The notes beneath the pieces are model-generated. The model was not told where the DNA came from and did no database searches. It saw nothing but the letters and a program-made list of their open reading frames with translations. A stretch of 64,000 nt of DNA from Hungatella sp. Its GTDB lineage: Bacteria > Bacillota > Clostridia > Lachnospirales > Lachnospiraceae. The translations under genes were made by a program, and so were the position numbers. The DNA is taken from NCBI GenBank assembly GCA_022792815.1, contig JAAWBS010000051.1, positions 62,001 through 126,000 on the forward strand, read 5' to 3'. Positions 4,517 through 36,205 of the stretch are shown in pieces. Every line of letters starts with the position of its first letter. Positions within the stretch are counted from its first letter, which is position 1.

Positions 4517-4560
4517 CTTCGATTCTACCCCCTCAGTATTTTTACTGTCTATAAACGGTT

Positions 4561-6961: not shown

Positions 6962-6962
6962 A

Positions 6963-7829
6963 TCATCCCTCTTTTTCACATCGTATTCTGTGCCAGTCCT
7001 CCGGATAGAAATCTCCTCTGCACATTCCTGCCTCCGGACAAATGATGCATCTCTTTTCATTCTGGTTTAACCATGCTGCCCACCAGCTATATGTACTGTT
7101 TGCTGTGATGATATGTTTGCAATTGCTCATGAGAAGGAAATCATCAAATGTCTTATTTTCAGATTCATACTGCAAAAAGCGCACATTCCCTCCTTCGTAC
7201 TCGTTAAAGTAATTCTTGCAGAATTCTAAATCATCGGAAAAGACATATATGACAATATTTTCATCATGGATTATGTCCTTTAACTTCTTGACAGCCTCAT
7301 CATAATAATTCATCTTAATTTGGCTTCCATTTTTTAGATAATCTCCTCTTCGAACATGCAAAGCAACACTATTGCAGTTTTTTACTTCAGATAGTAAAAT
7401 CTCCACATTTGGCGGACGTCTTTCGACAGGAACCAGAATTTTCATCAATTCCTCACGATATTTAATAAAGTATTTTTCATTTTGCCAATATCCCCGAAAA
7501 TATGTATCACCGGTAATATGAAATACCCCCTCATCATATTGGGTAGGTTCCTTTTCCAGATAAATTTTTGTATTGAAACCTATCATCCGACGTTTTCTCA
7601 ATTTATTAAAAACTGCGCGATTAATCATATCCTTTTTATATTTATAAAAAATTCTGTCATCATATTTTATTTGTAAATTTAATAATTGTAATTCTCTTGT
7701 GATCCTATTATCCTGCATACTTGTATCAATCATTAATCTGGCCCCTTTTTCTCTTGAAAGAGCGTACCCAAAACAGTAACAAAAAAGTTGGTTTCCAAAC
7801 CCTTCTACTACATCAACCATGATCCTCAT
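6963..7829 (-). CDS. GT11 alpha-1,2-fucosyltransferase-like protein
   Basis: 288 residues from the ATG at 7829, which has AAAGGAG upstream. EGFGNQLFCYCFGYALS at the N-terminus and HVRRGDYL (H158, R160, R161, D163) match GT11, where the HxRRxD motif binds GDP-fucose. The C-terminal NSTYSWWAAWLN is also typical. The product should add fucose, or a related GDP-sugar, to the repeat unit. No GDP-fucose synthesis genes are in the window, so the donor must come from elsewhere. Fucosylated capsules can resemble host glycans; that role is inference. It is co-transcribed with the flippase (1-nt spacing). Confidence 0.85.
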   Translation of the reverse strand: MRIMVDVVEGFGNQLFCYCFGYALSREKGARLMIDTSMQDNRITRELQLLNLQIKYDDRIFYKYKKDMINRAVFNKLRKRRMIGFNTKIYLEKEPTQYDEGVFHITGDTYFRGYWQNEKYFIKYREELMKILVPVERRPPNVEILLSEVKNCNSVALHVRRGDYLKNGSQIKMNYYDEAVKKLKDIIHDENIVIYVFSDDLEFCKNYFNEYEGGNVRFLQYESENKTFDDFLLMSNCKHIITANSTYSWWAAWLNQNEKRCIICPEAGMCRGDFYPEDWHRIRCEKEG

Positions 7830-7852
7830 ATTATTTATCTCCTTTGAACTGT

Positions 7853-8812
7853 CTACCAGTAGCATCCGTCTTCTACCATTTGTGCATTTGCAGGTCTCTC
7901 CGAACTCTCCGGATATATCCAGCTGTCATTATAAAAATTTCTTATTTCCTGTTCATGGGGATTTTCATCCCATCGCTTGCCTCGAATCCCAAAAAGCAAC
8001 TGTGTTGCTCCCCCTAGATGTATGACTTGTCTTCCCTCCCTCTTCAGCATAGCCGCCAGAGGAAATCCGTAAGCTCCACAGCCCAAAATAGCTATATCAA
8101 AATCAATCTTCATTGACTGTTCATACATCCAGTTCAATGCTTCAAACCATGTTTGGAATCTGCAGTCCTTCTCCCCCGCAATTGTCTGGACTGCTTTTAA
8201 GACAGTCAGGTCAAATTCCGGAAGGATCTTTGTGTCTGGAAATAATTCATTCCGCCTCTGGTATTGTCTGTAAATCGAATTTACAAATGGATGAATTACT
8301 AAAACTTTTTTATGTTCAAGCGCTTCCGTCCATGGACATTCGGGGTGCTTCCAGGGCCTTAAATTTGATAAATCCGTAATGTTCATATGTTTATCTGCAT
8401 ATTTTTTCAGATAATATCGCTCAAATGGCAGATTCCATATTCCCATAAAGTCTGTAGCCCCGATGGAGTTTATCATTAAATTCTTAAACTGGCAGCCGCT
8501 TGAGATATCTTTTGGAAAGAAACCGGACCACTCCATCAATTGTGAAAGAGTTTTTTCATATTTTGACTGGATCTCAAAGTCAAATACCATTACTGCATTC
8601 AACTCTGTTGCTCCAAATCGTCCTGCCATAAATGGCTTTCCTGATTTGATTCTATCTTTTATAATTTGATTAGAACCTTTGCTGTCCAGGACTTTTTTTC
8701 CATTATAAGAAGGAAGGCTCAATAGATACTGTTCCCGTCCCATTTGGTTCATTTTCTTTTTTCGAATTTTATCAGAAATATAATTCACAAAAAATATACC
8801 ATGTCTTTTCAT
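7853..8812 (-). CDS. GT-D-fold-like putative glycosyltransferase
   Basis: 319 residues, not a familiar named enzyme. MAGRFGATELNAV (residues 62-74, E70) resembles the R-(I/F)-G-x-x-E strand of GT-D (DUF1792-like) enzymes, and the C-terminal part ILGCGAYGFPLAAMLK followed by VIHLGGATQLLFGIRGKRW resembles the nucleotide-sugar-binding half of the same group. No signal peptide or membrane helix is seen. In this operon it is best read as a cytoplasmic glycosyltransferase of repeat-unit assembly. The family call rests on pattern recognition only and could be wrong; the gene itself is well supported by its AT-rich codon use and placement. Confidence 0.6.
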   Translation of the reverse strand: MKRHGIFFVNYISDKIRKKKMNQMGREQYLLSLPSYNGKKVLDSKGSNQIIKDRIKSGKPFMAGRFGATELNAVMVFDFEIQSKYEKTLSQLMEWSGFFPKDISSGCQFKNLMINSIGATDFMGIWNLPFERYYLKKYADKHMNITDLSNLRPWKHPECPWTEALEHKKVLVIHPFVNSIYRQYQRRNELFPDTKILPEFDLTVLKAVQTIAGEKDCRFQTWFEALNWMYEQSMKIDFDIAILGCGAYGFPLAAMLKREGRQVIHLGGATQLLFGIRGKRWDENPHEQEIRNFYNDSWIYPESSERPANAQMVEDGCYW

Positions 8813-8828
8813 TTACTTTTCCTCTTTA

Positions 8829-9974
8829 TTACACATAAGTTTCTCTATTCTTCTTTATACATATTGTCATATACAACAGTGGATAGAGCATATTATTAAT
8901 TCCAACCAAAATTTCAGTCTGTCCAATAACCAGATATGCTGTAATCAGTAAAAATACAATTTTACCCAATTCCGATTTTTCATTCTTTAAATAATAGGCG
9001 GCATACAGAAAAATCAAAATATTTAGAATCAGATACACCCATCCCCCACTAATGAGTAAATGTAAAATAAAATTATGTACATGATTTACAAGCAGATGGT
9101 CTCTTGAATCCAAAAAGGAAACCGTCACATTATTGCCATATCCATAAAAAGGCATCTCTCTCATCTTATCAAATCCTGCCAGCCACATATCACTTCGCCC
9201 TGTAAATCCCACATCCCTCCCCATCTTTAATAACAAAAATGTAAGAAGTCTTCCAATATACTGTCTATAGATAACAAAATAAAACGCAATCGCATCAACA
9301 ATTAAAACGAAATATAGATTAAAAACAGAACTTTTCCCATTGGGCATCAAGATAAGGCAAAGTAAAAAAAACGCGGCAGCAACCCCAGATGCAGACGATT
9401 TAAGAGCCATTATCATAACCGTCAAAAAAAGTACACTGATAAACAGAAAACCTTTCTGTTTTTTATGCTCTTTTTCCATACAATATACAGATAAACCCAC
9501 CGCAATCAGATAGATAATCATATGATAATTCTTATGCCCTAAGAGTCCGATATCTGCATTGCTGTAAGTTCCGTGCAGAAGGTCGTAAAACACCAAAACA
9601 ATATCAGCTGCAGACAGTCCCAGAAAGAAATTACGCATTGTCCGGATATAGCGATCACCTTGTTTTAAATGATGGTTGATGAGACACATCAGAGAGAATA
9701 TAGACAGAAATCGAAATATATTTTCTTTATGGACTTCCCCGTTTAAAAAATCCGAGCAGGTCACCCAGATCTGGCTCGCCAGTATCAAGAGGGCATACCG
9801 ATTTCTCAACAGGCTTCTTCCATAATTGGCAGCGATAATAAATGATAAGATGAAAATAACCACATAGTAAAGGTGTCTGGTGAAAGACCATATATAGAGA
9901 ACTTCTCCCACCATAACCAGCAGCGAAACATATTCAAAAAGATATTTATATGATATTCTCAGTCTCATTGTCAC
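8829..9974 (-). CDS. O-antigen ligase/Wzy-like polysaccharide polymerase
   Basis: About 381 residues from a GTG at 9974, 6 nt after AAGGAGG; an ATG two codons later is the alternative. The start lies inside the end of the upstream gene (29-nt overlap). About 10-11 membrane helices are seen, with the longest outer loop near the middle (around GHKNYHMIIY) and the late loop FTGRSDMWLAGFDKMRE followed by PFYGYGNN, a pattern of the O-antigen ligase/Wzy superfamily (PF04932). It probably polymerises the flipped repeat units. Sequence conservation in this family is weak, so ligase versus polymerase is decided by context alone. Confidence 0.8.
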   Translation of the reverse strand: MTMRLRISYKYLFEYVSLLVMVGEVLYIWSFTRHLYYVVIFILSFIIAANYGRSLLRNRYALLILASQIWVTCSDFLNGEVHKENIFRFLSIFSLMCLINHHLKQGDRYIRTMRNFFLGLSAADIVLVFYDLLHGTYSNADIGLLGHKNYHMIIYLIAVGLSVYCMEKEHKKQKGFLFISVLFLTVMIMALKSSASGVAAAFFLLCLILMPNGKSSVFNLYFVLIVDAIAFYFVIYRQYIGRLLTFLLLKMGRDVGFTGRSDMWLAGFDKMREMPFYGYGNNVTVSFLDSRDHLLVNHVHNFILHLLISGGWVYLILNILIFLYAAYYLKNEKSELGKIVFLLITAYLVIGQTEILVGINNMLYPLLYMTICIKKNRETYV

Positions 9975-11484
9975 GGTGCTCCTCCTTGCTACAGCCTCTT
10001 TTCCCCAACAGCAGAACAGCCTTTTCCCCATCAGAAAGATCAAATTCTTTTTCGTAGCAAATATCAAAAAAGTTCCCAAAAGCCTTCCTGACTGCGGATA
10101 AGCCCTTCTCCTGATCCGTACTTTCATGGCAAGTGATGCAGCAATACTTTTTTGATAGCTTTGAAATGGAATTGATCAGAGAATCCACCTTCCAGGCCTG
10201 ATAGATCTCTGCATGATTGGTAATGTCAACGGCAGTTACCAGGTCCGCCATAACACAGTTTCTGCTCTCTTCATCGGCGCCATAAATATAATTGTACAAA
10301 AAGGTATTTATAGGAATCTGTTTTTCTCTCAGTCGGCAGTAGGCTATCTCCGAATCCCTATCGCGATAATCCGCGGCAATGACTTTGACCTTAAATTCAT
10401 GGTATATGGCTTCCGCCAGATTCCCAAAATTTCCACCGATATCTGTACAGGACTCAATCTCCGGAATTATCTTTTTAATACCGGAGATCACTTCTTTTAT
10501 ATCTCTGTCTGCCTCTTTCATAATACCAACAGCCCCTTTCTCTTCCCTTAAGTTTTTATTATTGAAGAGAATGGATATATACTCAGGACGGACATCATAT
10601 AAATAAAAAATTTTCTGAACCAGCAGATTATAGAGCGGGGCGCTGTGAAGTACATGATATCTCATGAATTTACTCCGCATATGCTTATATTCAAGCGCAT
10701 CCGTATCATAGTACATCGGTGCAATCCAGATCTCGTTATTTTTTTCGTCATAAACCTGAATTCGTTTCAAGATACTGTTGTCCAGATTCCAAAACAGCAA
10801 TCGATAAAGTCCTGCAAAGACAACTGTCAGACTTTGTCCCAGGTGCAATCCGTCGTCGACGACAAAAGAACCAATATCGATAAACACACACCGTCCGTTA
10901 TCAAACGTAATATTATTCAAATGTCCGTCATGTAACTTAAATCCGAATGCGTTGCAAACCCTCTGAATCACAGTCATCATAATGCAGGCATCCTTGATCA
11001 TTTCATAGTTCCACATCTTCGAGGAGGAGATCGAAATTCTCTGATGTTCTATGATGATCGGATATTCCTCTGTAAAATAATCGGTTATAGATGTCTCCGG
11101 TATATACCCGTGCAGAGCCAAAACCTGTAAGATTCCGCTCTTCCACAATCTCTCAAAATAAGAACAGCTCTCTTTATAGATTCCCCGATAGATATGTCCG
11201 TCCTTTTCAATCACTTTTCCAAGGAAATCCCCATTATAACTGAGAAGGCGAAAGCCGGATAATTGGACGGTCCCCATGCCCACCGTAAGTGCGTCCGTCA
11301 GCTGAAACCTTTTTATCTCATCAGTAAGTTTGCTAATCAGCCGATCAAATTTATCTCTCTCTGTCTTTAACGTCCTATACGAAATCCACCTTGGACATAA
11401 TTTCCTGTCTTTTAATTTTCTGTACAAACGGACCTTTTGTTTTACCCTATAGACCAAAAATTCCTTTATTTGTGTTTTTGACAT
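9946..11484 (-). CDS. Kinase-like domain fused to SAM-methyltransferase-like domain (possible chain terminator)
   Basis: 512 residues. The N-terminal half has a protein/LPS-kinase-like core: [19 protein letters not shown] with H185, D186 and N190 as catalytic loop, and FIDIGSF (201-207, D203) in the place of the DFG strand. The C-terminal half starts at about 335 with [15 protein letters not shown] (D348, G350-G354), motif I of class I methyltransferases, and VIAADYRD (D372) as motif II. A kinase plus methyltransferase in one O-antigen gene recalls WbdD, which caps chains in E. coli O8/O9a, but there the methyltransferase comes first. Capping or length control of this capsule is inference. 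It overlaps both neighbours (18 nt upstream, 29 nt downstream). Confidence 0.65.
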
Positions 11485-12164
11485 GACAAATCCACCTGCC
11501 GAAGCTGTTCTATAAAATCATTAACATCAGAAAAACTTTCCCCGTGATCTCTGAGCCACTGTTCTTCCCGATTCCACCATTTAAATTCAAGTAGCTGCCT
11601 TCTTATTTCATCAGAAAATCTGTATCTGATAATCCTGGCAGGAACTCCTCCCACAATCGCGTAGGGAGGAACATCTTTTGTAACCACTGCCCCGGCTCCA
11701 ATGACAGCCCCATCCCCTATTCTCACGTTCTCTAAAATAGTTACTCTGCTCCCTATCCAGACATCGCTTCCTATTAGAATAGAAATCTTATGAGTGGGAT
11801 CAATATATTTAAAATCCGGGAATTTATCTTCTTCTACATAGCTGAGTTCGCCGTCTTTCTCAGAAGAATAGAACGCAGGATGGATAGAAACATAATTGAC
11901 AGGGTGATTTCCTGCAATGGTTATAACATCAGAGGCAATGCAAGAATACCTGCCTATGCAGGTGTTCTTTATAAAAGAATTATCGCCGACATAAGAGCTA
12001 TAGCCTATTTGGGAATTTAAAAAGGTTACATCATCTGTCAATTTGTTATTTCCCTCGAATACACAGTGTGAATCAATAATGACATTATGACCAAATCTGC
12101 ATTTCTTCCCCACCCTCATTCTATTGATAAACTGCTTTATAGATCTGCAAACTCTATAGTCCAA
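11466..12164 (-). CDS. Left-handed beta-helix acyltransferase (CatB/NodL-like)
   Basis: 232 residues if started at the TTG at 12164, which follows GGGGAGG and lies directly after the stop of the upstream gene; an in-frame GTG at 12191 lacks a ribosome site. Hexapeptide repeats run from about residue 25 to 175 ([14 protein letters not shown], then [20 protein letters not shown], then [14 protein letters not shown]), followed by [18 protein letters not shown], the typical end of xenobiotic/sugar O-acetyltransferases. The active-site His is probably in [10 protein letters not shown]. It should acetylate a sugar hydroxyl or the amino sugar made by the FdtA/FdtB-like pair. Which of the two acyltransferases does which cannot be told. 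Confidence 0.82.
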
Positions 12165-12165
12165 A

Positions 12166-12765
12166 TCAATCCTCCCCGATATCATCACCACTAACGGTTC
12201 TTATCCTTTTAGCGGGACATCCACCCCAAATCTCATTTGATGGAATATTTTTCGTCACAACGCTTCCCACGCCGACGATGCTCCTTTCTCCTATGGTTAC
12301 ACCTTTACATATAATACAATGTGCGCCAATGAATGCACCGTCTCTGATGATAACCGGTTTGCTGTTTCCACCCGGTTCTTTCATTCTCCTATGAAAATCC
12401 AACCAATGAAAATCCGTATCATATATCTTCGTTCCTCCGCCAATCAGTACATCGTTTCCGATCTCAATTGAAGCCGCTGCAAATAATGTAGAATTTGATA
12501 TTCCGCAATTGTTCCCTATTCTTATTTTACCGCAGCCCTTCGCAAATAAAATCGTCCTTCTGTCTCCTCCGATCGGATTGCTTTCTAAACTGGAATTTAT
12601 ACTGACATTATCACCTATAATAATTCCATCTCTTCGATTCGATACACAGTAGATCTTGCCAAGTATCTTTAAATTTCTTCCGTATTGAACCTGGCGATAT
12701 CTTAAAACCATAAAATTATATAACGTATCTGATATTCGAAATATCTTTTTGATAAAATTTTTCAT
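12166..12765 (-). CDS. Left-handed beta-helix acyltransferase (WbbJ-like)
   Basis: 199 residues from the ATG at 12765, with GAGGAAA 6 nt upstream. Hexapeptide repeats cover residues 45-185, ending [20 protein letters not shown]. The motif [13 protein letters not shown] holds the His usually found at the acetyl-CoA site of the maltose/galactoside acetyltransferase group. It is co-translated with the next acyltransferase (1-nt gap between stop and start). It could be the N-acetyltransferase (FdtC/QdtC-like) that completes a dTDP-3-acetamido sugar, or an O-acetyltransferase of the polymer. Confidence 0.82.
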
Positions 12766-12807
12766 AATGTATTTCCTCAAAACCTAACAGTCACAGGTAT
12801 ATACAGA

Positions 12808-13617
12808 TCACTTTTTTAATAAAATTCTAACATATGGTGATATGCTATAACCAAGCGCAGTGATCAGATTATAATTTTTATATAAAAAATGAAACCATTC
12901 TTTCCCAGGCAATCCCTTTGGTGATTCTTTTAATTTCAGCCTCGTCATTCTCGGCAGCGTTTTATCATTCCAACTTCCGGCCACCGGATTGTCATTACAT
13001 ATTCCGACATAATCAGATGAGACTTTTATTTTTATTCCCATTTTTTTTGCACACAGGCCATAATCAAAATCGCCTAATGCGTGTGTGTATACAGGGTCAA
13101 TATTTCCTAATCTTAAAAACAGATTCCACGGAATCAAGACACAATTGGCATTGAATGTATCGACAATTTTTCCTTTCTCTTTCTCAGCTTTAACAGTCTT
13201 AAACCTTGGAATCCAATCAGACTTTTTCTCAATTCCCCCATAGGATAAGATTTTATTTCTATCACATACAGGACCTACCCAAATACAATTTTTTTCTCGA
13301 CCAGCGAGGGTTTCTATTGCCCTGTGAAAGAATTCCACGTCATCGTTAAATAGCAGTACATATTCATATGACTTTTTATCCTTTCTCGCAGCATTAATTG
13401 CAGCTCGCATACCTCCACTGTAAAAGAGTGAACCTTCTCCGTGTAAAACTTTCACACAGTCAAATTGCTTTAAGGCCTCTGCTGTTCCATCGTTACTATT
13501 ATCATCAACAACAATAAAATAAAACTGTATATTAGAATTTCCTTCCACCAATTTATTTATTACTCCAACCGTCTTTTCCTTCCTATTAAAGCAGGTCAGC
13601 AATCCCAATATCCGCAT
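12808..13617 (-). CDS. GT2-family glycosyltransferase
   Basis: 269 residues of a GT-A fold. VDDNSNDGT (37-45) is the nucleotide-binding strand, NDDV (91-94) stands at the metal-binding DxD position, and GSLFYSGGMRAAINAA resembles the rhamnosyltransferase subgroup. THALGDFDYGLCAKKMG carries the D-x-D/Y of the acceptor-side loop. No membrane helix is apparent. It adds one sugar to the lipid-linked repeat unit; donor and acceptor are unknown. It sits 9 nt downstream of the GT4 gene. Confidence 0.88.
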   Translation of the reverse strand: MRILGLLTCFNRKEKTVGVINKLVEGNSNIQFYFIVVDDNSNDGTAEALKQFDCVKVLHGEGSLFYSGGMRAAINAARKDKKSYEYVLLFNDDVEFFHRAIETLAGREKNCIWVGPVCDRNKILSYGGIEKKSDWIPRFKTVKAEKEKGKIVDTFNANCVLIPWNLFLRLGNIDPVYTHALGDFDYGLCAKKMGIKIKVSSDYVGICNDNPVAGSWNDKTLPRMTRLKLKESPKGLPGKEWFHFLYKNYNLITALGYSISPYVRILLKK

Positions 13618-13626
13618 GATTGACCA

Positions 13627-14754
13627 TTATTCTCCTTTGTCAGCCTTCCTTGAAGAGTAACTGTTTTGTTTTATCCACCCATCGAACTTCCAAGCCGTCT
13701 GCTCCCAGGAAAACTTCTCGGTCACCCTTCTCCTGACATTGTTTTTATCCAGCTTTACACCGGACAAGATAATTCTCTTCATATCAGCCCCCGTATCTAC
13801 CAGATATCCGGAAATTCCGTTTTCAATGATGGAATCCGGGCCGGGCGCATGACAGGCCAAAACCGTACACCCCTGATACATTGCTTCCAATATACTCATT
13901 CCAAATATTTCATCAGAATTAAAATTTAAAAAGAAGTCACTCGCCAAATAATACTGGTGTATTTCATAATTTGGCATCTGACTAATCCGCCGAATATTAT
14001 CTTTGTAAGGAGAGCTGCGAATTTTTTCTTCTACCTGACGGTTCAGATTTCCAGTGCCTACCATAATCAAATAGAAATCTTCTCCCAGAGAATTCATCAG
14101 CTCTATTGCGTCGAGAGGCCTCTTATATCCATCCATTCTTCCAACAAATAGAAGTGCGGCTTTATTTTCAGGGATTTTTAATTCCATACGAAGTTTCTCT
14201 TTCGTCTTATGTATCGATGGTATGATATCCAAGTCCAACCCCACTGGAGCAATCTCCACATTTCTTATTCCCTGCCTTGCCATCTGAGTTTTTACAGACG
14301 GAGTCTTTACAAAACATTTATGCCTTTTATAACATCTAATATTTCTCTGATATAAAACATTCAACAAATTTCTCTTGACTTTATTTTTTGAGTCACTTGC
14401 TGTTGTTCCTATATAACAGTAGACAGGGATTCGATTCCTGGCACAAAAATGGATTACATCCGGGGCAAACAGTTGATTATCACTTCCGACTTGGACAATC
14501 TCTATTTGGTATTCCAGCAGTATGTTCCAATCGTATTTTGAATGAACTCCAAATACTTTTGCGGGCGTATAAATAATCTGTATCTGCTTTTCTACAGGTT
14601 CCTCCTTTGGTCTGGAAATATCTCTGCCAGGATAAAAAATGTAAACGTCATATCCTAACTTTTTCATCGCCTTTGCGAGGCCTATTTCCTGACTATTATA
14701 AAATCCCTTTTTACCAGATGAACCGCAGTACAATTCAACTATCCCCAGCTTCAC
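13627..14754 (-). CDS. GT4-family glycosyltransferase
   Basis: 375 residues of GT-B fold. The C-terminal domain opens with LLFVGRMDGYKRPLDAIELM and holds GMSILEAMYQGCTVLAC, in which the E is the usual ribose-binding glutamate, followed by IIENGISGYLVDTG. The N-terminal acceptor domain starts KLGIVELYCGSSGKKGFY. A retaining glycosyltransferase of repeat-unit assembly is predicted; the sugar cannot be read. It is tightly spaced (14 nt) after the gene at 14769. Confidence 0.88.
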   Translation of the reverse strand: MKLGIVELYCGSSGKKGFYNSQEIGLAKAMKKLGYDVYIFYPGRDISRPKEEPVEKQIQIIYTPAKVFGVHSKYDWNILLEYQIEIVQVGSDNQLFAPDVIHFCARNRIPVYCYIGTTASDSKNKVKRNLLNVLYQRNIRCYKRHKCFVKTPSVKTQMARQGIRNVEIAPVGLDLDIIPSIHKTKEKLRMELKIPENKAALLFVGRMDGYKRPLDAIELMNSLGEDFYLIMVGTGNLNRQVEEKIRSSPYKDNIRRISQMPNYEIHQYYLASDFFLNFNSDEIFGMSILEAMYQGCTVLACHAPGPDSIIENGISGYLVDTGADMKRIILSGVKLDKNNVRRRVTEKFSWEQTAWKFDGWIKQNSYSSRKADKGE

Positions 14755-14768
14755 TTAAGATTCCTCAC

Positions 14769-15785
14769 TTAATAGAAATAATCATTTAACTTTTCTAAGT
14801 CTATAACATCTGAAAGATACTTTATCTTCAGAGCAGCAAAATGTCTCTGTAAAAATCCCATGATCAGGTTGCTTGATCTGACCAATCTGTCTGGACTAAA
14901 ATCTACCCCATAATCTCTGACAAGAACTTTTCGAATATGTTCTATTTCTCTCATATACGGAATATATATGGTATATTTCAATTTCTGGTCCTTTGTCTGC
15001 GATTTAATGTTCACTTTTCTTCCGGACAGATATCTGATATTCTGAAAATGGTAAAAGATCAGAGGAAACTCTTTCCCTGAATCATCACACATCCGAATCC
15101 TTTTTCCGTCCAAAACAGTTATGGCATACTGTTCCAAATTCCAGGGTGCCACTCCCCCACCTAAATGTTCTAACTCATACACACCCTTAAAAAGGATCTT
15201 GAATTGATCCAAGTATTTTTGATCCCCCATCCTGTTTGGCTCCGGAATATCATAACACCACTCCAGGCATTGATCTCGCCACCATTCCAAGACCTTTCGG
15301 CCGTTTTCACTCTTCCGAAAATAGTTAAATTGAACGCAATATTTTCCATTTCTCTTCTCCAGCTTTTTTCCATATGCATTATCTTTAAACCTATGGGGCA
15401 CAATAGTCACATCTGCGTCTGCAGCGTGAATTTCGTCAAAGAGAATCTGTGGATCATCAAAAAAATAGAGGTCTGAATCGATATAGGTACAGCTGTCAAT
15501 CTCATGATTTTTCAAAGTATAGTCTATGATTACAGGAGTACATGTCCAACAGTATTCCGCTTTTGATCGCTCCCTCTTCTTTCCCAGCAATTCCGGTGTC
15601 TCAAAACAGCTGTGATGATGTACAATCATATGCGAAAAATTCATTCCCTTTAATATCTCGTAGGACCGGTCATCAAAGCAGTATGTAAATAAAGAAAAAT
15701 TGTCAGAGACCTTTTCTAAAGATTTGTACAATGCTATCCCTTTATCCAGATAATAACTGTCAAACAAGGTACAAAAGTTTATCAT
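14769..15785 (-). CDS. GT-A nucleotide-diphospho-sugar transferase
   Basis: 338 residues. The DxD strand is obvious (CTYIDSDLYFFDDPQILFDE), preceded by FDSYYLDKGIALYKSLE at the N-terminus, so the fold is that of GT8-like or related inverting GT-A enzymes. YCWTCTPVIIDYTLK and GDQKYLDQF are further shared segments of this group. The start codon overlaps the stop of the FdtA-like gene (ATGA). It probably transfers the amino sugar or another residue in the same pathway. Confidence 0.82.
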   Translation of the reverse strand: MINFCTLFDSYYLDKGIALYKSLEKVSDNFSLFTYCFDDRSYEILKGMNFSHMIVHHHSCFETPELLGKKRERSKAEYCWTCTPVIIDYTLKNHEIDSCTYIDSDLYFFDDPQILFDEIHAADADVTIVPHRFKDNAYGKKLEKRNGKYCVQFNYFRKSENGRKVLEWWRDQCLEWCYDIPEPNRMGDQKYLDQFKILFKGVYELEHLGGGVAPWNLEQYAITVLDGKRIRMCDDSGKEFPLIFYHFQNIRYLSGRKVNIKSQTKDQKLKYTIYIPYMREIEHIRKVLVRDYGVDFSPDRLVRSSNLIMGFLQRHFAALKIKYLSDVIDLEKLNDYFY

Positions 15786-16198
15786 CTCATTTTCTCCATT
15801 TCTGTTAAATAGTCCTTGTAATCACGGATATATTCTTTTCCGTTATAGTGAGTACTTGCAAGCACCAAAAGAACCGAATCCGCTGAAAAATCGTACATAT
15901 CCTTCCAGATCATTGAGGGAATATAGACTCCCATCATCGGTTTATCCAACTGAACGATAAATTCTTCCTTTCCGTCTGTGATCCTCACCTTGCTCTTTCC
16001 GGCTACATTGATCAGTACAAATTCGGATTCCTTATTGGCATGCTGTCCACGCACCACCGTCGAGTCTGACTCATAGATATAAAACACTCTCCGAATCTGG
16101 AAAGGAATGGCCATCCCGCCTTCGATGACCACAAGTTTTCCTCTCTCGTCACCCAAATCAGCAAACTGCAGTACAGGACATCGTTCTTCTAATGTCAT
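15782..16198 (-). CDS. FdtA/QdtA-like dTDP-4-keto-6-deoxyglucose 3,4-ketoisomerase (cupin)
   Basis: 138 residues, the usual length for the small cupin sugar isomerases. LQFADLGDERGKLVVIEG (10-27), RRVFYIYESD, then RGQHANKESEFVLINVAGKS (50-69) with the catalytic His match WxcM/FdtA/QdtA. The enzyme converts dTDP-4-keto-6-deoxyglucose to the 3-keto isomer, the substrate for the aminotransferase encoded 14 nt upstream. FdtA (axial C4, fucose series) and QdtA (quinovose series) cannot be told apart here. The dTDP-glucose synthesis genes rmlA/rmlB are not in the window. Confidence 0.85.
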   Translation of the reverse strand: MTLEERCPVLQFADLGDERGKLVVIEGGMAIPFQIRRVFYIYESDSTVVRGQHANKESEFVLINVAGKSKVRITDGKEEFIVQLDKPMMGVYIPSMIWKDMYDFSADSVLLVLASTHYNGKEYIRDYKDYLTEMEKMR

Positions 16199-29180: not shown

Positions 29181-29266
29181 AGAAGTTACAGTTCGCGGGG
29201 CGGGGAAAACCGGGCAAAAAGATCCCCCTCCCCATGAATAACAACCAATACGAGGAGGTATCTGAT

Positions 29267-29785
29267 ATGAATGCTGTGATGGAAAACCTGCTGACCCGGC
29301 GGAGTGTCCGCGCCTTTGAGGACCGGGAAATTCCGAGAGAAGAACTGGACGAGATCCTGAAAGCCGCCCAGTATGCCCCCAGCGCCATGAACCGCCAGAC
29401 ATGGCAGTTTACCGTGGTGTGCAGCCGCTCCAAAATCCAAAAGCTGGCGGAGGCCATCGGGAAAGCCTTAAACCGCGACAACTATACCATGTATGAGCCC
29501 CAGGTCATCATCATCACCACCAACCTGCGAAATGCCCGGTTCGGCGTGGATGATAATGCCTGCGCCTTGGAGAACATCTTCCTGGCCGCCCACTCCTTCG
29601 GCATCGGTTCCGTGTGGATCAACCAGCTGAGGGATGCCTGCGACGATCCCAAGGTAAGGGAAATGCTCCGGGGATTCGGCATCCCGGACGATCATATGGC
29701 TTACGGCATCGCCGCCCTGGGATACGCGGCGCCGGCGCCGGAAAAGGAACTGGTGAAGAACGGGAAGATTGTGTTTGTAGATTAG
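29267..29785 (+). CDS. Nitroreductase-family flavoprotein
   Basis: 172 residues from the ATG at 29267, 8 nt after GAGGAGG; an ATG at 29234 lacks a ribosome site. NLLTRRSVRAFEDREIP with EELDEILKAAQYAPSAMNRQ is the FMN-binding start of the family, where Arg and Ser contact the FMN phosphate. GIGSVWINQL and YGIAALGYAAPAP complete the fold. It is a short, single-domain member without a ferredoxin domain. Such enzymes reduce nitro groups, quinones or enones with NAD(P)H; the true substrate is unknown. A terminator follows. Confidence 0.88.
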   Translation: MNAVMENLLTRRSVRAFEDREIPREELDEILKAAQYAPSAMNRQTWQFTVVCSRSKIQKLAEAIGKALNRDNYTMYEPQVIIITTNLRNARFGVDDNACALENIFLAAHSFGIGSVWINQLRDACDDPKVREMLRGFGIPDDHMAYGIAALGYAAPAPEKELVKNGKIVFVD

Positions 29786-29796
29786 AAAATCTTGTG

Positions 29797-29842
29797 ACAA
29801 AGCCGCCGGCTCTGATCATGCGATCAGAGTCAGCGGCTTTGT
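29797..29842. terminator. Bidirectional intrinsic terminator
   Basis: ACAAAGCCGC (29797-29806) pairs with GCGGCTTTGT (29833-29842), with inner stem CTCTGATC/GATCAGAG. It is followed by TTTTC on the plus strand and preceded by A-rich sequence, so it serves the nitroreductase gene and the converging ATPase gene. Confidence 0.8.
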
Positions 29843-29845
29843 TTT

Positions 29846-32482
29846 CTATTTGGGAAGCAGCGAAAGTACCTTCGGCCTTGCCCCTTTTCCGTATTTAAAC
29901 TTCAGCGCATGTCTTATGATCTCCGGCAGATAGTGCTTATCATTTTCTATCCTCAGATACCCCTCCTGCTTCATAACTTTTTCTTCTGCCTGGGTAAGAT
30001 CAAAGGTATCACTGTAAAACGGCAAGATTTTTTTCTCGGAAGGCGCGTTTTCCAGCTTGTCAAAGATCGGTTCCAGCGCTTTAATCTCCTGCCGTATCTC
30101 ACTGATCTTCTCAATGGAACAGTTGGACACCGCTTTTTTTATCTCTGCGGGCATCAGATATCGGTCAGCATAGAACGGGCGGCCCGTGTCTTCTGTCGCC
30201 TTTGCCAGGAACCGGATGATATCCCGGGCCTGAAGCTGTCCGTTAAAATCAGATAAAGCAGCCAAGATCCATCGGGATGAGTTGGCTTCATTGGAAGTGG
30301 GTTTTCCCAATTTTACTCCCCACAATGTTTGAAGGGTTCTGTCAATTACCTCTCGGGGAGCCATCTCGATCGGTGCCTCTTCCTGGTAGAAACCCGGCAC
30401 TGCCTGATTGACCAGCCAAATAACCAGCCTTAGTGCCTCTGTGCCCGACCACTGCAGCTCCATCGGGGAATGCTGAGAATAGAACTGTTCAAAATTGACT
30501 GTGATACAATCTCTTGCCATATCCTTTCTCAAAAATATCATCAACCCGAAATGGGTGTACTTGATCATGATCTCGCTGATTACATCTCTGCACAGGGCCG
30601 CAACGGCATTTTTCTCGTTTTCCGATGATATGGTCTGCAGAAAGATCTCCTCCAGGCCATCTGCCAAAAATACGATCCGAACCCCTCTTCTCCCCAGTGC
30701 CTCATCCAGCTCCTCTAGAGAGTCGTAAGCCTCATGAAAGGTGGACAAAATAACATGTTTCCAAATCTCTTTCCACTCTAACAAATCATGCGTTTCCCTG
30801 GCATATCTGGACAGACTGTCTCGGTTATCAATGTACACGGATTTTTTTATCTTATGATTCATTTGAAAATGATTACAATTTTCTATGGCATTTTCCAAAA
30901 TTTCATGAAGTTCCCCGATATTGCCGGAAGCAAGCAGCGGGACAGCAAAAATACGGTCTTCATCAGACGAGGCGCTTCTCTCCCCTGAACTCTTTTTATC
31001 CATGTGAGCGACAAACTTTTCCCAGGACTGTTTTCTCAAAATTTCCCTGTATAAAAAAGTCTTTCCCGACCCTTTCGCTCCCATAATCACGGTATTCGGA
31101 ACGCTGTTTCGATATCTCTTTATCAGGTTTTTAACCGGTTCTGTCATCAATACTTCCAGCGCCTCGTTGCCCTCTGCAGTGATCTGCCGCTCCGCCAGAC
31201 GATGAATCCTCTTTACAGCGGTTTCTCTCGTCAGTTCATCTGCCCTCTGACTCTGTCTACTGCCGGCGCAATAACTGTTTCTGACAATCTTTTCTATGTT
31301 ATTATAGAAATCCCTTCCGCTTAAATTCTTCATTATCTTCTGCAAAGACTCTAAATGTACAAGTTCACTTGCAAAGGGAAGTTCTGTCACAAGATTGTCT
31401 GTGATCGAACGGTTTTCATCTGATATATATTTATCATAAACAGACACCAGCTGACTGATCATATCCGTAGTATTGACATGTTCCTGGCCCATAGTCAGCA
31501 AAATCTCCGGCACGATGGAATTTCCATCTAAGGGCAGTCCTTTGCTGAGCTGATGCAGTAATAGCTCTGTTCCCTTTACAGACTGGTAGGATGTCGAGGT
31601 CACCAGATATTTTTTAACCCGGGGGTCAAAGAGCAGCGGGGCAGAAAACTCACTCAGCCCGGCTCTCAAGTCAACTAATACCATCTCTGCGTCTACCCGT
31701 TCCCCCAATTTTGACAGCACTTCCGCTAAAATGTATTTTTTATTATAACTGAGAGCAAGGCTTTCCGGACTCGAATACATGTCCAGCAGCTGCTCGATAT
31801 AACGATAGGTAGGCAGCACAATATGTTCCACCATACTTTTGTCTGTCTCGATATTAATTGTCAGCTCCGAGAGTCTATCAGCCGCTGCCTCAATCACTTC
31901 TTCCACATGATCTTTTTCCTGTGTGATCTCCAAAAGGTCTAAAAAGCTAAAGGCCGCCTCTTCCTGCCCCGATGTGAGCCATGTGATTCCCGGAGCTTCT
32001 ATATCGGCATCTACAATCAAAAGCCTTTTAGGACTTTTTAAATCCTTGAGCACGGACCATGCCTTTACAAAGGCCAGAAGCGATAACGTGCGTCCCACAC
32101 CGCCTTTGTAGGAATGAAAGGCAAGTACCGGCACTCCTGGAAGCTCCTTGTCCAACAATTCACTATAATATGCTGATTGCTGATACAGGACATTTTTGAA
32201 AAGAGGAATCATCACCGCAGACTTTTTCGTATCCTCCTGCACGTCAAAGCCGACCGTTAAATATTCCCCCTGCAAGTCTAAAAAAATTTTTTTCTCAATC
32301 CCATCATATTTTTTCCCCAACAATTCTTCCAGTATCTTTTCAGCAAAGCTTTTATCCTCTTCTTTTCTCAAATTGATGACCAGCTCGTCTGTATAAGTCT
32401 CGATATCGAGAATCGTTGTCCCCCAACGCTTTCTGTTCAATAATAAGTATCTCTCTACATCTTTCCAGGTATACAACAGCAT
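29846..32482 (-). CDS. KGGVGR-type ParA-like ATPase with second P-loop NTPase domain
   Basis: 878 residues from the ATG at 32482; a TTG at 32503 would overlap the upstream gene. Residues 1-115 are an alpha/beta N-terminal domain with no recognised motif. Residues 116-400 are a deviant-Walker ATPase of the ParA/MinD kind: FHSYKGGVGRTLSLLAF (K126-T132, with Arg where the second signature Lys normally stands), LLIVDADIEAPGITW and MVLVDLRAGLSEF. Residues 445-870 form a second NTPase: NTVIMGAKGSGKTFLYREIL (P-loop near 468-475), RIVFLADGLEEIFL as Walker B, and a helical C-terminus. KGGVGR ATPases occur in conflict systems. Its only partner is the HEPN-like gene 4 nt upstream; phage defence is inference. 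Confidence 0.75.
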   Translation of the reverse strand: MLLYTWKDVERYLLLNRKRWGTTILDIETYTDELVINLRKEEDKSFAEKILEELLGKKYDGIEKKIFLDLQGEYLTVGFDVQEDTKKSAVMIPLFKNVLYQQSAYYSELLDKELPGVPVLAFHSYKGGVGRTLSLLAFVKAWSVLKDLKSPKRLLIVDADIEAPGITWLTSGQEEAAFSFLDLLEITQEKDHVEEVIEAAADRLSELTINIETDKSMVEHIVLPTYRYIEQLLDMYSSPESLALSYNKKYILAEVLSKLGERVDAEMVLVDLRAGLSEFSAPLLFDPRVKKYLVTSTSYQSVKGTELLLHQLSKGLPLDGNSIVPEILLTMGQEHVNTTDMISQLVSVYDKYISDENRSITDNLVTELPFASELVHLESLQKIMKNLSGRDFYNNIEKIVRNSYCAGSRQSQRADELTRETAVKRIHRLAERQITAEGNEALEVLMTEPVKNLIKRYRNSVPNTVIMGAKGSGKTFLYREILRKQSWEKFVAHMDKKSSGERSASSDEDRIFAVPLLASGNIGELHEILENAIENCNHFQMNHKIKKSVYIDNRDSLSRYARETHDLLEWKEIWKHVILSTFHEAYDSLEELDEALGRRGVRIVFLADGLEEIFLQTISSENEKNAVAALCRDVISEIMIKYTHFGLMIFLRKDMARDCITVNFEQFYSQHSPMELQWSGTEALRLVIWLVNQAVPGFYQEEAPIEMAPREVIDRTLQTLWGVKLGKPTSNEANSSRWILAALSDFNGQLQARDIIRFLAKATEDTGRPFYADRYLMPAEIKKAVSNCSIEKISEIRQEIKALEPIFDKLENAPSEKKILPFYSDTFDLTQAEEKVMKQEGYLRIENDKHYLPEIIRHALKFKYGKGARPKVLSLLPK

Positions 32483-32486
32483 AGAC

Positions 32487-32951
32487 TCACATCCCTTCTT
32501 CAATCCAATCGGCTATATTTCTCAATGTCTCCTCCAGCTTTTCTTCCTTTTCTCTGTCCTTTTCCTGAGTTCTGATACAATAACGATAAAGCTGATGATA
32601 GGACTCGGAAGACACGAAATCCTTATGTATCGTTTCTAACTGGGGAAATTTAAAATTTCCCTGCTGTCCTAATTCCTTTATTATTTTCTCCAAATTGTGG
32701 GATGTTAACACACTCTTTTTCTTTTCATCTTTGCCGTCTAATACATTTCTCGGGTCGTTTTCATTCCACTTATCCAGCAGCTTATATTTTAATCCGCACT
32801 CTACGCTGTAGATCAATATCATTCTTCTGCTGTTCAGATCCCCGTTCTCCTGATGCAGTTTTTTGTATAATCTAAAATGTTTGTAATACCCGTTCCTATA
32901 ATCCCTTTTATCTGCATGCAGCATAATGGAATATCCGAACCTTTCCGACAA
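32487..32951 (-). CDS. HEPN-like all-helical protein, partner of the KGGVGR ATPase
   Basis: 154 residues, started by TTG at 32951, which stands 7 nt after AGGAGG. The helices resemble HEPN proteins: SRRMILIYSVECGLKYKLLD (41-60) as the conserved first helix, LTSHNLEKIIKEL (82-94), and a long C-terminal helix with SESYHQLYRYCIRTQ leading into EKLEETLRNIADWIEEGM. The usual RNase motif R-x(4-6)-H is not evident, so it may be a non-catalytic or divergent member. It is expressed first in a two-gene operon from a consensus promoter. The HEPN call is by pattern only; a plain helical adaptor is the alternative. Confidence 0.6.
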   Translation of the reverse strand: MSERFGYSIMLHADKRDYRNGYYKHFRLYKKLHQENGDLNSRRMILIYSVECGLKYKLLDKWNENDPRNVLDGKDEKKKSVLTSHNLEKIIKELGQQGNFKFPQLETIHKDFVSSESYHQLYRYCIRTQEKDREKEEKLEETLRNIADWIEEGM

Positions 32952-32954
32952 ATT

Positions 32955-32984
32955 AAGCCTCCTGCCATTTCTGACAAGAGGCTT
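32955..32984 (-). promoter_or_regulatory. Hairpin that covers the ribosome site of the HEPN-like gene
   Basis: AAGCCTC (32955-32961) pairs with GAGGCTT (32978-32984). On the mRNA the 3' arm contains part of the AGGAGG site used by the TTG start, so folding would limit translation. Confidence 0.4.
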
Positions 32985-33017
32985 TCATCATTTGAATCAA
33001 TCATCTGGCTGTTATTT

Positions 33018-33046
33018 ATTATATGAAAAGTCAAAAACAATGTCAA
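33018..33046 (-). promoter_or_regulatory. Consensus sigma-A promoter of the HEPN/ATPase operon
   Basis: TTGACA (33046-33041), exactly 17 bp, then TATAAT (33023-33018): a perfect consensus on the minus strand, starting transcription near 33011, 60 nt before the first gene. Confidence 0.75.
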
Positions 33047-33069: not shown

Positions 33070-36000
33070 CTACTTCACCCACGCTCCCTCGGCGTCCACC
33101 CGGTACCCGTCGGGTGTGACGGTATCTCTGGCCATAGCGCCCTGGTCTGCGCCCTGACTGGGATTGAAATAATACCATTTCCCGTCGATCTCATGCCAGC
33201 CGGTATACATGTGTCCCATGGTGTTGTCCGACAGGTTGTGGAGGAAATAGCGTTTTCCCTGCCACTCCATCCATCCGGTGATCATATATCCGTCCTTGTC
33301 AAAGAAGTACCAGCCTCCTGTGCCATTCCAATCCAGGTATCCCCAGCGGTCAATGATATCCTCCCCCTTGGAATCCTTAAACCGCCATCCTCTGGCATCC
33401 CGGCTCCAGTCTCCGCTCTCCGTCGGGATGGACCCTGCGGCTTCTCTTCCCATATCGTAGGAATCGTCGTCGGAGTCATCGTCGTCGGACCAGGTTTTCT
33501 CCTTCAGACTGTCCACGGCCCGATACAGATCCTTTAAGGCCTTCTCCACCTGCTTCTCTGTGGCATTCTCGTCCTCCAGCACTTCTCTCGCATTCTCTAA
33601 GGCCTTTAAGAACCGGTTCCAGCTGGCCATGGTGTAATTGTCATTGGTAATCCGGCCGCACTCTTCCACTGCTGCCTTCAACTCCGACTTATCCACCGCC
33701 TGACCCTCTTTCACCGTCACATTAAAGATGGCCTTAAAGTCCTCCTCATACGTGACTGTGACCGGAGATTTGCCTGCCTTGTCAAAGCTGTAGCTTAAGT
33801 CATAATCCTCTATGGTCTCCTCGTAGGAGGCGTTGCTGGAGCTGGCCTTCATGACGGCTTTCACCACCAGGCCCTCCGTGTCCAGTTCCTCCCCTATGTA
33901 GTACTCGGTCTTGTCGGGCAGGTTGGCCACCCGGATTTTCTCTACATGGAAGGTATCCTCGGTCACATGAACCGTAAACCGCTTTACCAGGCGATAGACC
34001 CTGTCTCCCATGGCAGTCTCCACGGTGACGGATACTGTCTTGTCTCCCGGCTCCTGGGAGTCGAAACCGTCCACCTCATATTCTCCTTCTGCCAGCACTC
34101 TGGACTGAGCATTATTTGACGTGGCTGTCACCACCATACCGGTCAGATCCAGCTCCTCGCCCACCACATAGTTGAGCCGGTTGGGCTCCTTCACTTCGAT
34201 TCCTGTAAAGTACTCCTCATTTTCTCCGTTCTTGGTCAGGACCAGATCGCAGAATTCAATATGAGAAGCCTTCAGGCCATTCGCCACATCCCTTTTGCCA
34301 TTGCGGTAGATTCCCCACTTGGGACGATTGTACTGGTCAAAGCAGGCCGGATAATCCAGTTCTCCTACCCCATTCTGATAAGGCCTTCTCCAGGTATCAT
34401 GATTTCCCGCATAGTCCATCAGCACCTCTCCGGTCTGGGAATCTGTAATCATGACTTTTACCCATCCGTCGTCTGCGTGAAGCATCTCCAAGGACACATC
34501 GATCCATCTGCCTCTGACTTCGTTCATGGGAATCGACACTTCTTTTCCGTTCTGATCCACAACCACCTTATCCTCGCTGCGGAACTGAAGTCCTTTCGTC
34601 ACTGCCGTAAAGGAAAAAATCGCCTTTCCGTGTTCCTGAACCGGATCGGTAAATCCGGGCAGGGTTTTGTTTCTCTGTCCGTTCACCGCCTTCAGCTGGA
34701 AGATGTGATTGAAACTTCCGCTGACCGGATAGTCATCCGCCAGGCGCCACTTCCACTGATACTTGGTCACATCGCCATCCACGGCTACCAGCTCCATGCC
34801 GGAGTCGGTGCTGGGGCGGATCTCGATCCTCTGTCTGCTGTTATCCCCGTCCACCAGCTCTCCCGTGTCCTTGTTGTAATTGGCCTTGTGGGCATAACAG
34901 CCGATGCTGCAGTCATTGTCATGAGCCTGAATACTCATCACAAACCTCCCCAGCTCCTCGTCAAACAGGTTGATCATATGGCTCTCCGCCGCCGGAAGTG
35001 CGGCCCGGATCCTCTTGGTGGCTCCCTCCACAGGCTCGTCGGTTCCCAGTCCCTCTCCCAGCACGGTGAAGGGAGAGATCCCCGGCACCGCATTGATGAC
35101 GGATGTGGTGCCCGACTTGCTGGACACTGCCACGGTAAACAGGCTCTCCTCTCCGGACTCGAACCTGACGATAAACTGATTGTCCGCCGGCGGCAGACTC
35201 ATGAGATATACCTGGTCAAACACCAGGAGATTCCCCAGAATCTGATAGTCCGTCCCTTTCTTAAGGCGCACGATGCTCCCCGGCTTTTCCTGCCCGTCAC
35301 CCTTTTCCAGAGCTCTCTCCAGGGTGATGTGGCTGACGGATTTCACCTTCTCGTCCTCCGGAAATTCCGTGGACACGTCGGAGGCGATTCCCCGGAAATA
35401 GTCCGCCCGCTCCGGGTACAGCTCCACTTGATTTTTCACCGCGTCATATCCGAAAAGCTGTAAGTCCACCAGACCCAGGTCATGTTCCGGCACCAGGTTG
35501 GCATCTCCCAAAAGGGTGATGGAGACCATCACATACCTTGCGGTAAATGGATGGTGGAAAGTCTTGGTATCACAGGCCCAGTCCTTCCCGTTCAGCCTGG
35601 CATTGGACCACAGGCCCTCCGTCTCCGTGCCTCCTGCCAGATTCCACCCGTTTTCTTCCCATGAATACTCGCACACCTCATTGGAAGCCTCCGGGAGCTG
35701 ATCCCAGATCCGGTCGTCACTGGTATACACGATCTCAAATTTGTTGGACAGATTCTTGGCGTTTACTTTGTCCAGAGTCAGATTCAGGTGCTTTGCCTCA
35801 TTGGCCAGAACGATATAGGCGCTCTCTATGGTCTTCTCTGCCCCCAGATCCACGGCCCAGAACAGGGTCGAGGGTTCATAGACATCCTTGTATACCCCCC
35901 CCCCCGAAATCTCCGCCATGTTTCCAGTAGTGTACCCCGTCTCCGCACAGGGCATCCGTCCCCGGATAGTCCGGGTCCTCGGAGCTGACCTTGATGTTGG

Positions 36001-36172
36001 TCTCGTCAGGGGTAAACTCCGCCTCGTCCAGCAGATCCCTCACCTCAACCTCATCCTTCACTGCCGCCTGAGTCTCCTGGGGATAACACATACAGCTTCC
36101 GATCCCCAGCACAGCGGCAAGGACCAGAGCAGTCCTCCGCCTCAAGCCTTCACTCATTCCTTTTCTTCTCAT
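33070..36172 (-). pseudogene. Heparin-lyase-like surface protein, out of frame at a G11 tract (possibly phase-variable)
   Basis: Two frames join at the poly-C run 35895-35905. The first, from ATG 36172 (AAAGGAG upstream), encodes a signal peptide (LVLAAVLGIGSCMCYPQETQA) and about 90 residues, then runs out of frame. The second, down to 33070, encodes in order: a discoidin/CBM32-like module (WAVDLGAEKTIESAYIVL), a lyase domain like PF14099 (QRIEIRPS, WKWRLADDYP, NRPKWGIYRNG), two group-3 Ig-like repeats (VVGEELDLTGMVV, YIGEELDTEGLVV), a FIVAR-type three-helix module and glucan/choline-binding repeats at the C-terminus (GWHEIDGKWYYFNP). G10 or G13 would restore about 1,033 residues. It would cut acidic polysaccharides at the cell surface. 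Last gene of the uptake locus. Confidence 0.78.
35895..35905. repeat. Eleven-base homopolymer (C11; G11 in the coding strand)
   Basis: The tract sits about 90 codons into the lyase gene. With n=11 the signal-peptide frame does not enter the lyase frame; n=10 or 13 restores it. Either slipped-strand phase variation or a base-calling error. Confidence 0.85.
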
Positions 36173-36205
36173 CGATCCCATCTCCTTTCTCTTTCTTTTC
36201 TATTT

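Follow-up and report, generated by a model that had tools for sequence, protein, structure and literature searches.

Organization of the locus

Within the window (the whole 64-kb stretch of Hungatella sp. DNA that was analyzed), two genes on the minus strand form a compact operon. The first encodes a small protein of 154 a.a. with a HEPN-like fold, related to PDC-M28A and Pfam HEPN PF05168 (32487..32951); the second, 4 bp downstream, encodes a large protein of 878 a.a. in which a PDC-M28B-like ATPase is joined to a PDC-M28C-like ATPase (29846..32482). The small gene begins with a TTG codon preceded by an AGGAGG site, and the large protein is 878 a.a. long when read from its ATG and 885 a.a. 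when read from an upstream TTG. A promoter of the form TTGACA-17-TATAAT (33018..33046, minus strand) agrees with the consensus at 12 of 12 positions and is the sole exact match in the window, against 0.04 expected by chance. The consensus promoter and the two-gene unit of the initial annotation are thus borne out.

The 5′ leader contains a hairpin with a 13-bp stem lying over the small gene's ribosome-binding site, AGGAGG (32955..32984, minus strand); the surrounding region (32925-33011) has a z-score of −2.69, with 1 of 200 shuffles folding as well. By eye, a 13-bp stem of this kind was seen in none of 10 other leaders that were folded. The leader of one relative (L061), also read by eye, displays weaker pairing over its own GGAGG. 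Directly 3′ of the large gene, and before a convergent gene at 29234-29785, is a second hairpin (29798..29841, minus strand; −36.4 kcal/mol and z −9.25 for the region 29780-29850). The proposal that terminators isolate the unit therefore holds downstream, where this hairpin is strong, but not upstream: the scan detected no terminator-like site on the minus strand between the end of the preceding gene, which runs in the same direction (33070), and the promoter. Overall, the scan returned 5 sites against a shuffle mean of 6.4, i.e., no excess. The GC content is 0.38 for the small gene, 0.45 for the large gene, and 0.49 for the window.

The flanking genes had been described as unrelated metabolic genes, which does not fit the right-hand neighbor, a protein with Big_3 and choline-binding repeats; the left-hand neighbor is nitroreductase-like, as judged by eye alone. 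Among the neighbors examined, no signs of a defense island or prophage were found.

Two ATPase modules in the large protein

The large protein has two ATPase domains: (i) a KGGVGR-variant domain of the ParA/MinD type (residues 117-312; 31547..32134, minus strand), matched by NCBIfam NF047398 with 145 bits against a cut-off of 90 (E-value 3.3e-42); and (ii) a Sll1717-type P-loop domain (residues 462-840; 29963..31099, minus strand), matched by NF047389 with 66.4 bits (E-value 2.6e-18), short of the cut-off of 75, which the relative L002 clears at 79.5 bits. The Walker A variant of the first domain, KGGVGRT (residues 126-132; 32087..32107, minus strand), is invariant at 7 of 7 positions among eight aligned proteins, all of which have an arginine in place of the usual P-loop lysine. 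In the same eight proteins, 7 of 8 positions of the second Walker A, GAKGSGKT (residues 468-475; 31058..31081, minus strand), are invariant, and DGLEE follows at residues 608-612. The initial reading of a KGGVGRT domain plus a separate second P-loop with DGLEE is confirmed. Profile matches of the KGGVGR domain in the PDB include a PF-32 protein, a site-determining protein, and ParA.

A PADLOC search matched both modules to components of a listed candidate system, PDC-M28. The PDLC04559 model (PDC-M28 B, KGGVGR ATPase) matches residues 112-312 (E-value 1.5e-14), and PDLC04561 (PDC-M28 C, Sll1717-like ATPase) matches with an E-value of 2.5e-9; each model is matched only in part. In L061, PDLC04561 has no match at 0.1. 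PADLOC thus already lists the parent family, albeit as separate genes, and the initial description of the system as a candidate undescribed one is not supported.

A distant HEPN relationship of the small protein

In hmmscan searches of Pfam, NCBIfam, and PADLOC, the small protein of the window matches nothing above cut-off, and no Pfam HEPN match was obtained at all, so that the gathering score is not reached. Pfam HEPN models were also run on eight relatives, of which three pass (L027, L034, and L036), two fall below the cut-off (L008 and L035), and three have no match. The PADLOC models for PDC-M28 A likewise have no match to the window protein; they do match its relatives L061 (1.5e-5) and L077 (0.0041). 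Comparison of profiles does detect the relationship: the small-protein family aligns to 14 PDC-M28A-type proteins with a probability of 95.6 (E-value 1.1e-8), a 16-sequence profile aligns to the same 14 with 96.0 (E-value 4.6e-9), and a comparison against five relatives (three above the Pfam cut-off and two not scanned) gives 90.0 (E-value 1.6e-6), while the best of 30 shuffled controls reached 1.2. The predicted structure is helical, and HEPN structures fill the top rows of the fold search, the best matches including HEPN toxin-antitoxin pairs. The model itself has moderate confidence (mean pLDDT 67), falling below 50 at residues 101-128, the stretch that contains Arg123 and Tyr124; searches of PDB sequences, by phmmer as well as by profile, returned no HEPN. 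Profile comparison and predicted fold together support the HEPN assignment proposed at the outset, with the small protein as a distant relative of PDC-M28A and Pfam HEPN.

None of the 16 small proteins has the HEPN RNase motif Rx4-6H at Arg123, as read from the alignment (the interrupted L102 left out). Two Rx4-6H matches elsewhere in the window protein are unconserved. In a wider set of 20 proteins, the motif is present at the Arg-Tyr site in L008, L031, L032, and L035. Against an otherwise low identity, Tyr48, Glu51, Cys52, Lys55, His85, Arg123, and Tyr124 are kept in 16 of 16, a pattern that suggests chemistry or tight binding.

Pairing and spread of the two genes

The pairing of the two genes across genomes was upheld: in all 17 close-relative loci whose large gene is intact, a small homolog lies directly upstream of it. 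Nine of these loci were found through the large protein alone and lie outside the small-protein model set; the small gene is interrupted in L102 and its match is weak in L110. The spacing between the two genes ranges from −25 to +11 bp (8 of 8 loci), and the identities of the small and large proteins are correlated (r 0.87 over 28 pairs, which are not independent of one another). The pair is sparsely distributed: counting the window's own genome each time, it was found in 3 of 26 genomes of the genus, 9 of 397 of the family, and 4 of 398 of the phylum. Of the 392 genomes sampled from the order, 22 match at an E-value of 0.001, and only three (the window's own, G146, and G334) carry a full-length match. 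The genus-mate G006 has an empty site. A scan of genome contigs yielded a single find, a broken copy in Schaedlerella arabinosiphila that is 68% identical in its best segment.

As a family query, PDC-M28B picks up ParA/MinD proteins in general and therefore matched 396 of 398 genomes and 14 of 14 controls; from it, long and strong matches alone were kept (L031-L037 and a second match in G475), and L008 came from the order sample. In a tree of 21 rows, from which L029 (a near-copy of L028), the truncated L037, and later-found members were left out, the window, P2, and P4 members form a common clade (support 100/100), separated from PDC-M28 by a long branch (100/100).

Phage, satellite, and plasmid settings

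Of 5426 Escherichia coli genomes, 11 carry the pair (11 records, 10 strain names). The large protein of the window is 28% identical to its E. coli counterpart over 837 columns (E-value 8e-111), and the small protein 28% identical over 96 (E-value 1e-8). In 11 of 11 copies, three of them inspected in full, int, the pair, and psu lie in one stretch, with the pair between int and psu of a P4-like satellite. All copies are chromosomal, with the replicon unassigned for those from draft genomes. Since the copies are at least 99% identical, the 11 placements are nearer to a single event than to eleven. In a P2-like prophage (IMG/VR contig L077), the pair is flanked by a portal gene on one side and an origin-nicking replication gene on the other; this is one contig, found by every viral-contig search that returned any relative, and two others were empty. 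The available portions of one study describe the psu-int locus of P4-like satellites as an antiphage hotspot and the gpA-gpQ locus of P2-like phages as the other (Rousset et al., 2022; PMC9122126).

Of 40 plasmid records, eight further ones were opened, and four of these hold all three modules (L071, L072, L074, and L076), bringing such plasmid loci to seven with L027, L028, and L029. At L076 a split relative lies between BREX-2 pglW and pglX, L027 adjoins hsdR, L071 is separated by a single gene from a type III restriction gene, and L028 is near a TIR gene; in the stretches shown for the other three, no restriction, BREX, or TIR gene is annotated. An Aeromicrobium plasmid locus with a C-like gene and no B was set aside, as were plasmid loci with MqsA or TIR architectures.

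Proposed function

The pair is probably a mobile two-gene antiphage defense cassette and a fused form of the candidate family PDC-M28. This reading follows from where its relatives sit, namely where some phages and phage satellites keep weapons against other phages; the placements at psu-int, in the P2-like prophage hotspot, and in BREX-2 support it well, and the hotspot locations (psu-int and gpA-gpQ) likewise lend support to the defense role that was first proposed from the window alone.

Two other roles are improbable to different degrees. The pair could be a toxin-antitoxin (addiction) module, in which a HEPN toxin is restrained by its ParA-like partner and which maintains mobile elements rather than stopping phages. 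The constant small-then-large order and the structural matches to HEPN toxin-antitoxin pairs agree with such a module, but the partner is a protein of 860-960 a.a. with two ATPases. Usual antitoxins are far smaller. MAE_18760-type HEPN proteins with ParA/Soj ATPases have been predicted to be toxin-antitoxin pairs, yet that HEPN keeps the Rx4-6H motif missing here, according to the portions available (Anantharaman et al., 2013; PMC3710099). The psu-int, gpA-gpQ, and BREX-2 placements (the last of a split relative) also suit defense better, and an addiction module appears unlikely, although the two roles may coincide. Less probable still is a partition or segregation system in which the ParA-like KGGVGR domain retains a plasmid-like element in the cell. 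Such a role would suit the ParA/MinD-type domain with its PF-32, site-determining protein, and ParA matches, as well as a report, in the portions available, of putative partition systems at the gpA-gpQ locus in roughly one in four P2-like phages (PMC9122126). However, the unit has no third, ParB-like gene, the E. coli copies are all chromosomal (replicon unassigned in drafts), arginine replaces the usual P-loop lysine in all eight aligned proteins, and NCBIfam partition models fall far under cut-off in the relatives scanned.

Within the antiphage reading, whose estimate covers both versions, the HEPN protein may be the effector or a non-catalytic adaptor or nucleic-acid sensor. With Rx4-6H absent in 16 of 16, effector is one among several readings, so that of the proposal "effector or regulator" the HEPN fold stands and the effector part is only one option. 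As an adaptor, it would leave the large ATPase to act on the phage, e.g., by binding or blocking DNA. The strict conservation of both ATPase sites is consistent with this, and HEPN domains without conserved polar residues are held to be nucleic-acid binders in the available text of PMC3710099; the same text allows that some PF05168 members with a displaced histidine may still be active, and the seven residues kept in 16 of 16 point instead to chemistry or tight binding. The adaptor version is a minority possibility and does not exclude the best explanation.

A tentative mechanism, which as a whole we put somewhat below an even chance, can be drawn for the preferred antiphage reading. The small HEPN protein would bind the large protein and be kept idle by it. 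In an infected cell, the large protein would use ATP-dependent dimerization of the KGGVGR domain and a second ATP switch in the Sll1717 domain to sense phage DNA or a phage component, and would then release or reshape the HEPN protein. The latter would in turn arrest the cell, with RNA cleavage or a nucleotide-dependent reaction as the likeliest means, at an unusual site proposed to comprise the invariant Glu51, Lys55, His85, Arg123, and Tyr124. More speculatively, and with considerable doubt, the pair could represent a distinct antiphage class: infection would be sensed by the two-ATPase protein, which would then trigger a HEPN protein with a non-canonical E-K-H-R-Y site in place of Rx4-6H. 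Such a class would be common to chromosomes of the window's family, P4-like satellites of E. coli, and a P2-like prophage.

Relation to known systems

In the literature searched (bioRxiv and supplements lay outside the search), no paper was found on KGGVGR, PDC-M28, Sll1717, or a defense pair of ParA-like ATPase and HEPN, nor any published bench test of the pair. The available portions of Rousset et al. (2022; PMC9122126), supplementary tables aside, do not name it. Two screens for new systems in E. coli (PMC13092281 and PMC9519451) include HEPN systems, with no mention of a ParA-type partner in the portions available, and inactive MinD/ParA domains are described from other conflict systems in the available text of Kaur et al. 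(2020; PMC7159879). The fused pair ties PDC-M28, a listed but apparently uncharacterized candidate, to two well-studied antiphage hotspots, including in E. coli, where a natural 3.1-kb cassette makes function directly testable. It also raises the questions of how a HEPN protein without the RNase motif contributes to defense and what ParA-type ATPases sense in conflict systems.

Several described systems resemble the pair in part. HEPN (MAE_18760) and ParA/Soj pairs (Anantharaman et al., 2013) likewise place a HEPN gene beside a ParA-type ATPase gene, but with Rx4-6H kept and a plain ParA/Soj partner, whereas the window pair lacks the motif and has a second ATPase joined to the first. The HepT-MntA toxin-antitoxin shares the HEPN-like fold and the two-gene unit; in contrast, the partner in the window is no nucleotidyltransferase, and its small protein is without Rx4-6H. 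Among the antiphage systems of P2 gpA-gpQ and P4 psu-int (Rousset et al., 2022), relatives of the window pair occur at both loci. The closest likeness is to PDC-M28, found here on Enterobacter plasmids (E. coli has nothing closely matching this split system) and in a Streptomyces BREX-2 operon. Module content and order agree, with HEPN-like A first, then KGGVGR ATPase B and Sll1717-like C, under a three-gene PADLOC rule as read from the model names; PDC-M28 lists B and C as separate proteins, whereas a single gene encodes both in the window and its close relatives.

Operon Organization

The small gene (32487-32951, minus strand, 154 aa), encoding the HEPN-fold protein, and the large gene (29846-32482, minus strand, 878 aa), encoding the KGGVGR ATPase, are separated by 4 bp and form one operon. 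The promoter (33046-33018, minus strand) matches 12/12 consensus positions and is the sole exact site in 64 kb (1 vs. 0.04 expected by chance), which bears out the two-gene unit with a consensus promoter described in the initial annotation. That annotation also had terminators isolating the unit. A strong hairpin does lie 3' of the large gene, but the gene preceding the operon is co-directional and stops 24 bp short of the promoter, and a scan found no terminator-like site between the two; isolation is thus apparent on one side only. A leader hairpin (32955-32984, 13-bp stem) masks the small gene's ribosome-binding site and, being absent from relatives, is possibly a local control element.

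The right-hand protein (33070-35955 and 35876-36181, minus strand) carries Big_3, FIVAR, and choline-binding repeats and is seemingly frame-shifted, with a signal-peptide-like start (by eye) in a different, overlapping frame; either gene decay or an error in sequencing may be the cause. Elsewhere in the window, GC is low (about 0.32-0.41) across 4001-16000. This stretch carries polysaccharide genes, encoding a flippase, a Wzy_C ligase, glycosyltransferases, and a tyrosine phosphatase, and resembles a capsule or exopolysaccharide locus that has been exchanged.

Domains of the Large Protein

Residues 117-312 of the large protein score 145 bits (cut-off 90) against the NCBIfam KGGVGR-variant ATPase, in whose loop an arginine replaces the usual P-loop lysine, as judged against known ParA motifs. 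Residues 462-840 are similar to the Sll1717 P-loop ATPase family (NCBIfam; 66.4 bits, below the cut-off of 75), and one relative (L002) passes that cut-off. PADLOC places PDC-M28B at 112-312 and PDC-M28C at 463-683, PDC standing for "phage defence candidate." Two Enterobacter plasmids encode the modules as separate genes; in one (L028), the matches to PDC-M28A, B, and C span almost the full length of these genes. The large gene of the window is thus a joined B-C.

In a tree of 21 KGGVGR-domain sequences, the window falls inside an 8-member clade (support 100/100, branch of 2.81 changes per column) comprising five members of its family, one of another family of the phylum, a P2 prophage, and E. 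coli; the Pantoea row (L074) is long and of odd composition. One change suffices to separate joined from split architectures (support 92/91), and, the tree being unrooted, both fusion of split genes and splitting of a fused gene are possible.

Conservation and Mobility of the Pair

Conservation of the pair across genomes, proposed earlier as a check, holds: a small homologue lies directly upstream on the same strand in 17/17 loci with an unbroken large gene, these being each distinct such locus from the genus, family, phylum, and order searches, together with L077, a contig of a P2-like prophage, and a single E. coli copy that represents eleven; at L102 the small gene is in a single open frame for its second half only, and at L110 its match is weak. 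Three decayed loci lie beyond the 17; the small gene survives as a remnant in L104 and was not detected in L004 or L106. The broken copy in L004 (8001-9980, Schaedlerella arabinosiphila) is the closest relative by identity (68%, best segment), and the same 18-kb locus holds a MobA-like gene (by eye).

Strong matches, the window's own genome included, occur in 3/26 genomes of the genus (alignment search, E 1e-20), 9/397 of the family, and 4/398 of the phylum (both E 1e-60), with three full-length matches in an order sample of 392. Surroundings vary between genomes (four family loci with longer flanks). In genus-mate G006, the two genes flanking the window site lie 93 bp apart with the operon absent between them, and its own copy adjoins an apparent sigma-factor gene (by eye) at another site. 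No operon trace occurs within the adjoining 1.5 kb or less in ten further genus-mates that possess the left-hand gene. The operon's GC is below the window mean. The distribution, empty site, varied surroundings, and lower GC give the picture of a mobile cassette.

Genomic Locations of Relatives

In L077, the pair lies between the portal gene (phrog_68) and the replication-origin nicking gene (phrog_91). E. coli carries it in 11/5426 genomes, with int, the pair, and psu within one stretch in 11/11, a count to be read with caution as the copies are near-identical; in one, an IS21 element separates the pair from psu. These two positions correspond to the P2 gpA-gpQ and P4 psu-int loci, which Rousset et al. 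(2022, PMC9122126) describe as antiphage hotspots and from which they validated several systems. The same authors note putative partition systems at the P2 locus, a reason for caution.

All three modules occur at seven plasmid loci. One (L076, Streptomyces) lies between BREX-2 pglW and pglX, one (L027) adjoins hsdR, one (L071, Calothrix) is separated by a single gene from a type III restriction gene, and one (L028) has a TIR gene nearby; the other three (L029, L072, L074) show none of these in the annotated stretch. In L071, two more function-unassigned genes (6514-8265) follow the split A-B-C, before the next opposite-strand gene, and may belong to the set. Plasmids L070 and L073 have another KGGVGR architecture, a ~620-aa protein preceded by an MqsA-family antitoxin-like gene. 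A short protein of Microcystis phage Mic1 (L030, 5037-5657) matches only the second ATPase (Sll1717-type) of the large protein, and its ParA annotation looks wrong.

Proposed Function and Relation to Known Systems

The sequence-level results concern architecture, pairing, conservation, and location, and the operon is probably an antiphage system. If so, the large protein could tentatively be sensor and switch, with the HEPN protein as effector; slightly less likely is an adaptor role for the HEPN protein, with the large protein as the acting part. Polar residues of the small protein are strictly conserved at an otherwise 24-33% identity to the window's (7 relatives), a pattern that points to chemistry or tight binding there. 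Members of PF05168, as treated by Anantharaman et al. (2013, PMC3710099), can have D in place of H, where a histidine elsewhere could aid activity.

KGGVGR, PDC-M28, and Sll1717 are unnamed in the literature searched (preprints and supplementary tables lying outside the search). The initial annotation's "undescribed" does not stand for the parent family, and because PDC-M28 is an already listed PADLOC candidate, the window operon ranks as a variant of it. In PDC-M28 of the Enterobacter plasmids B and C are separate genes, whereas in the window B-C is one gene.
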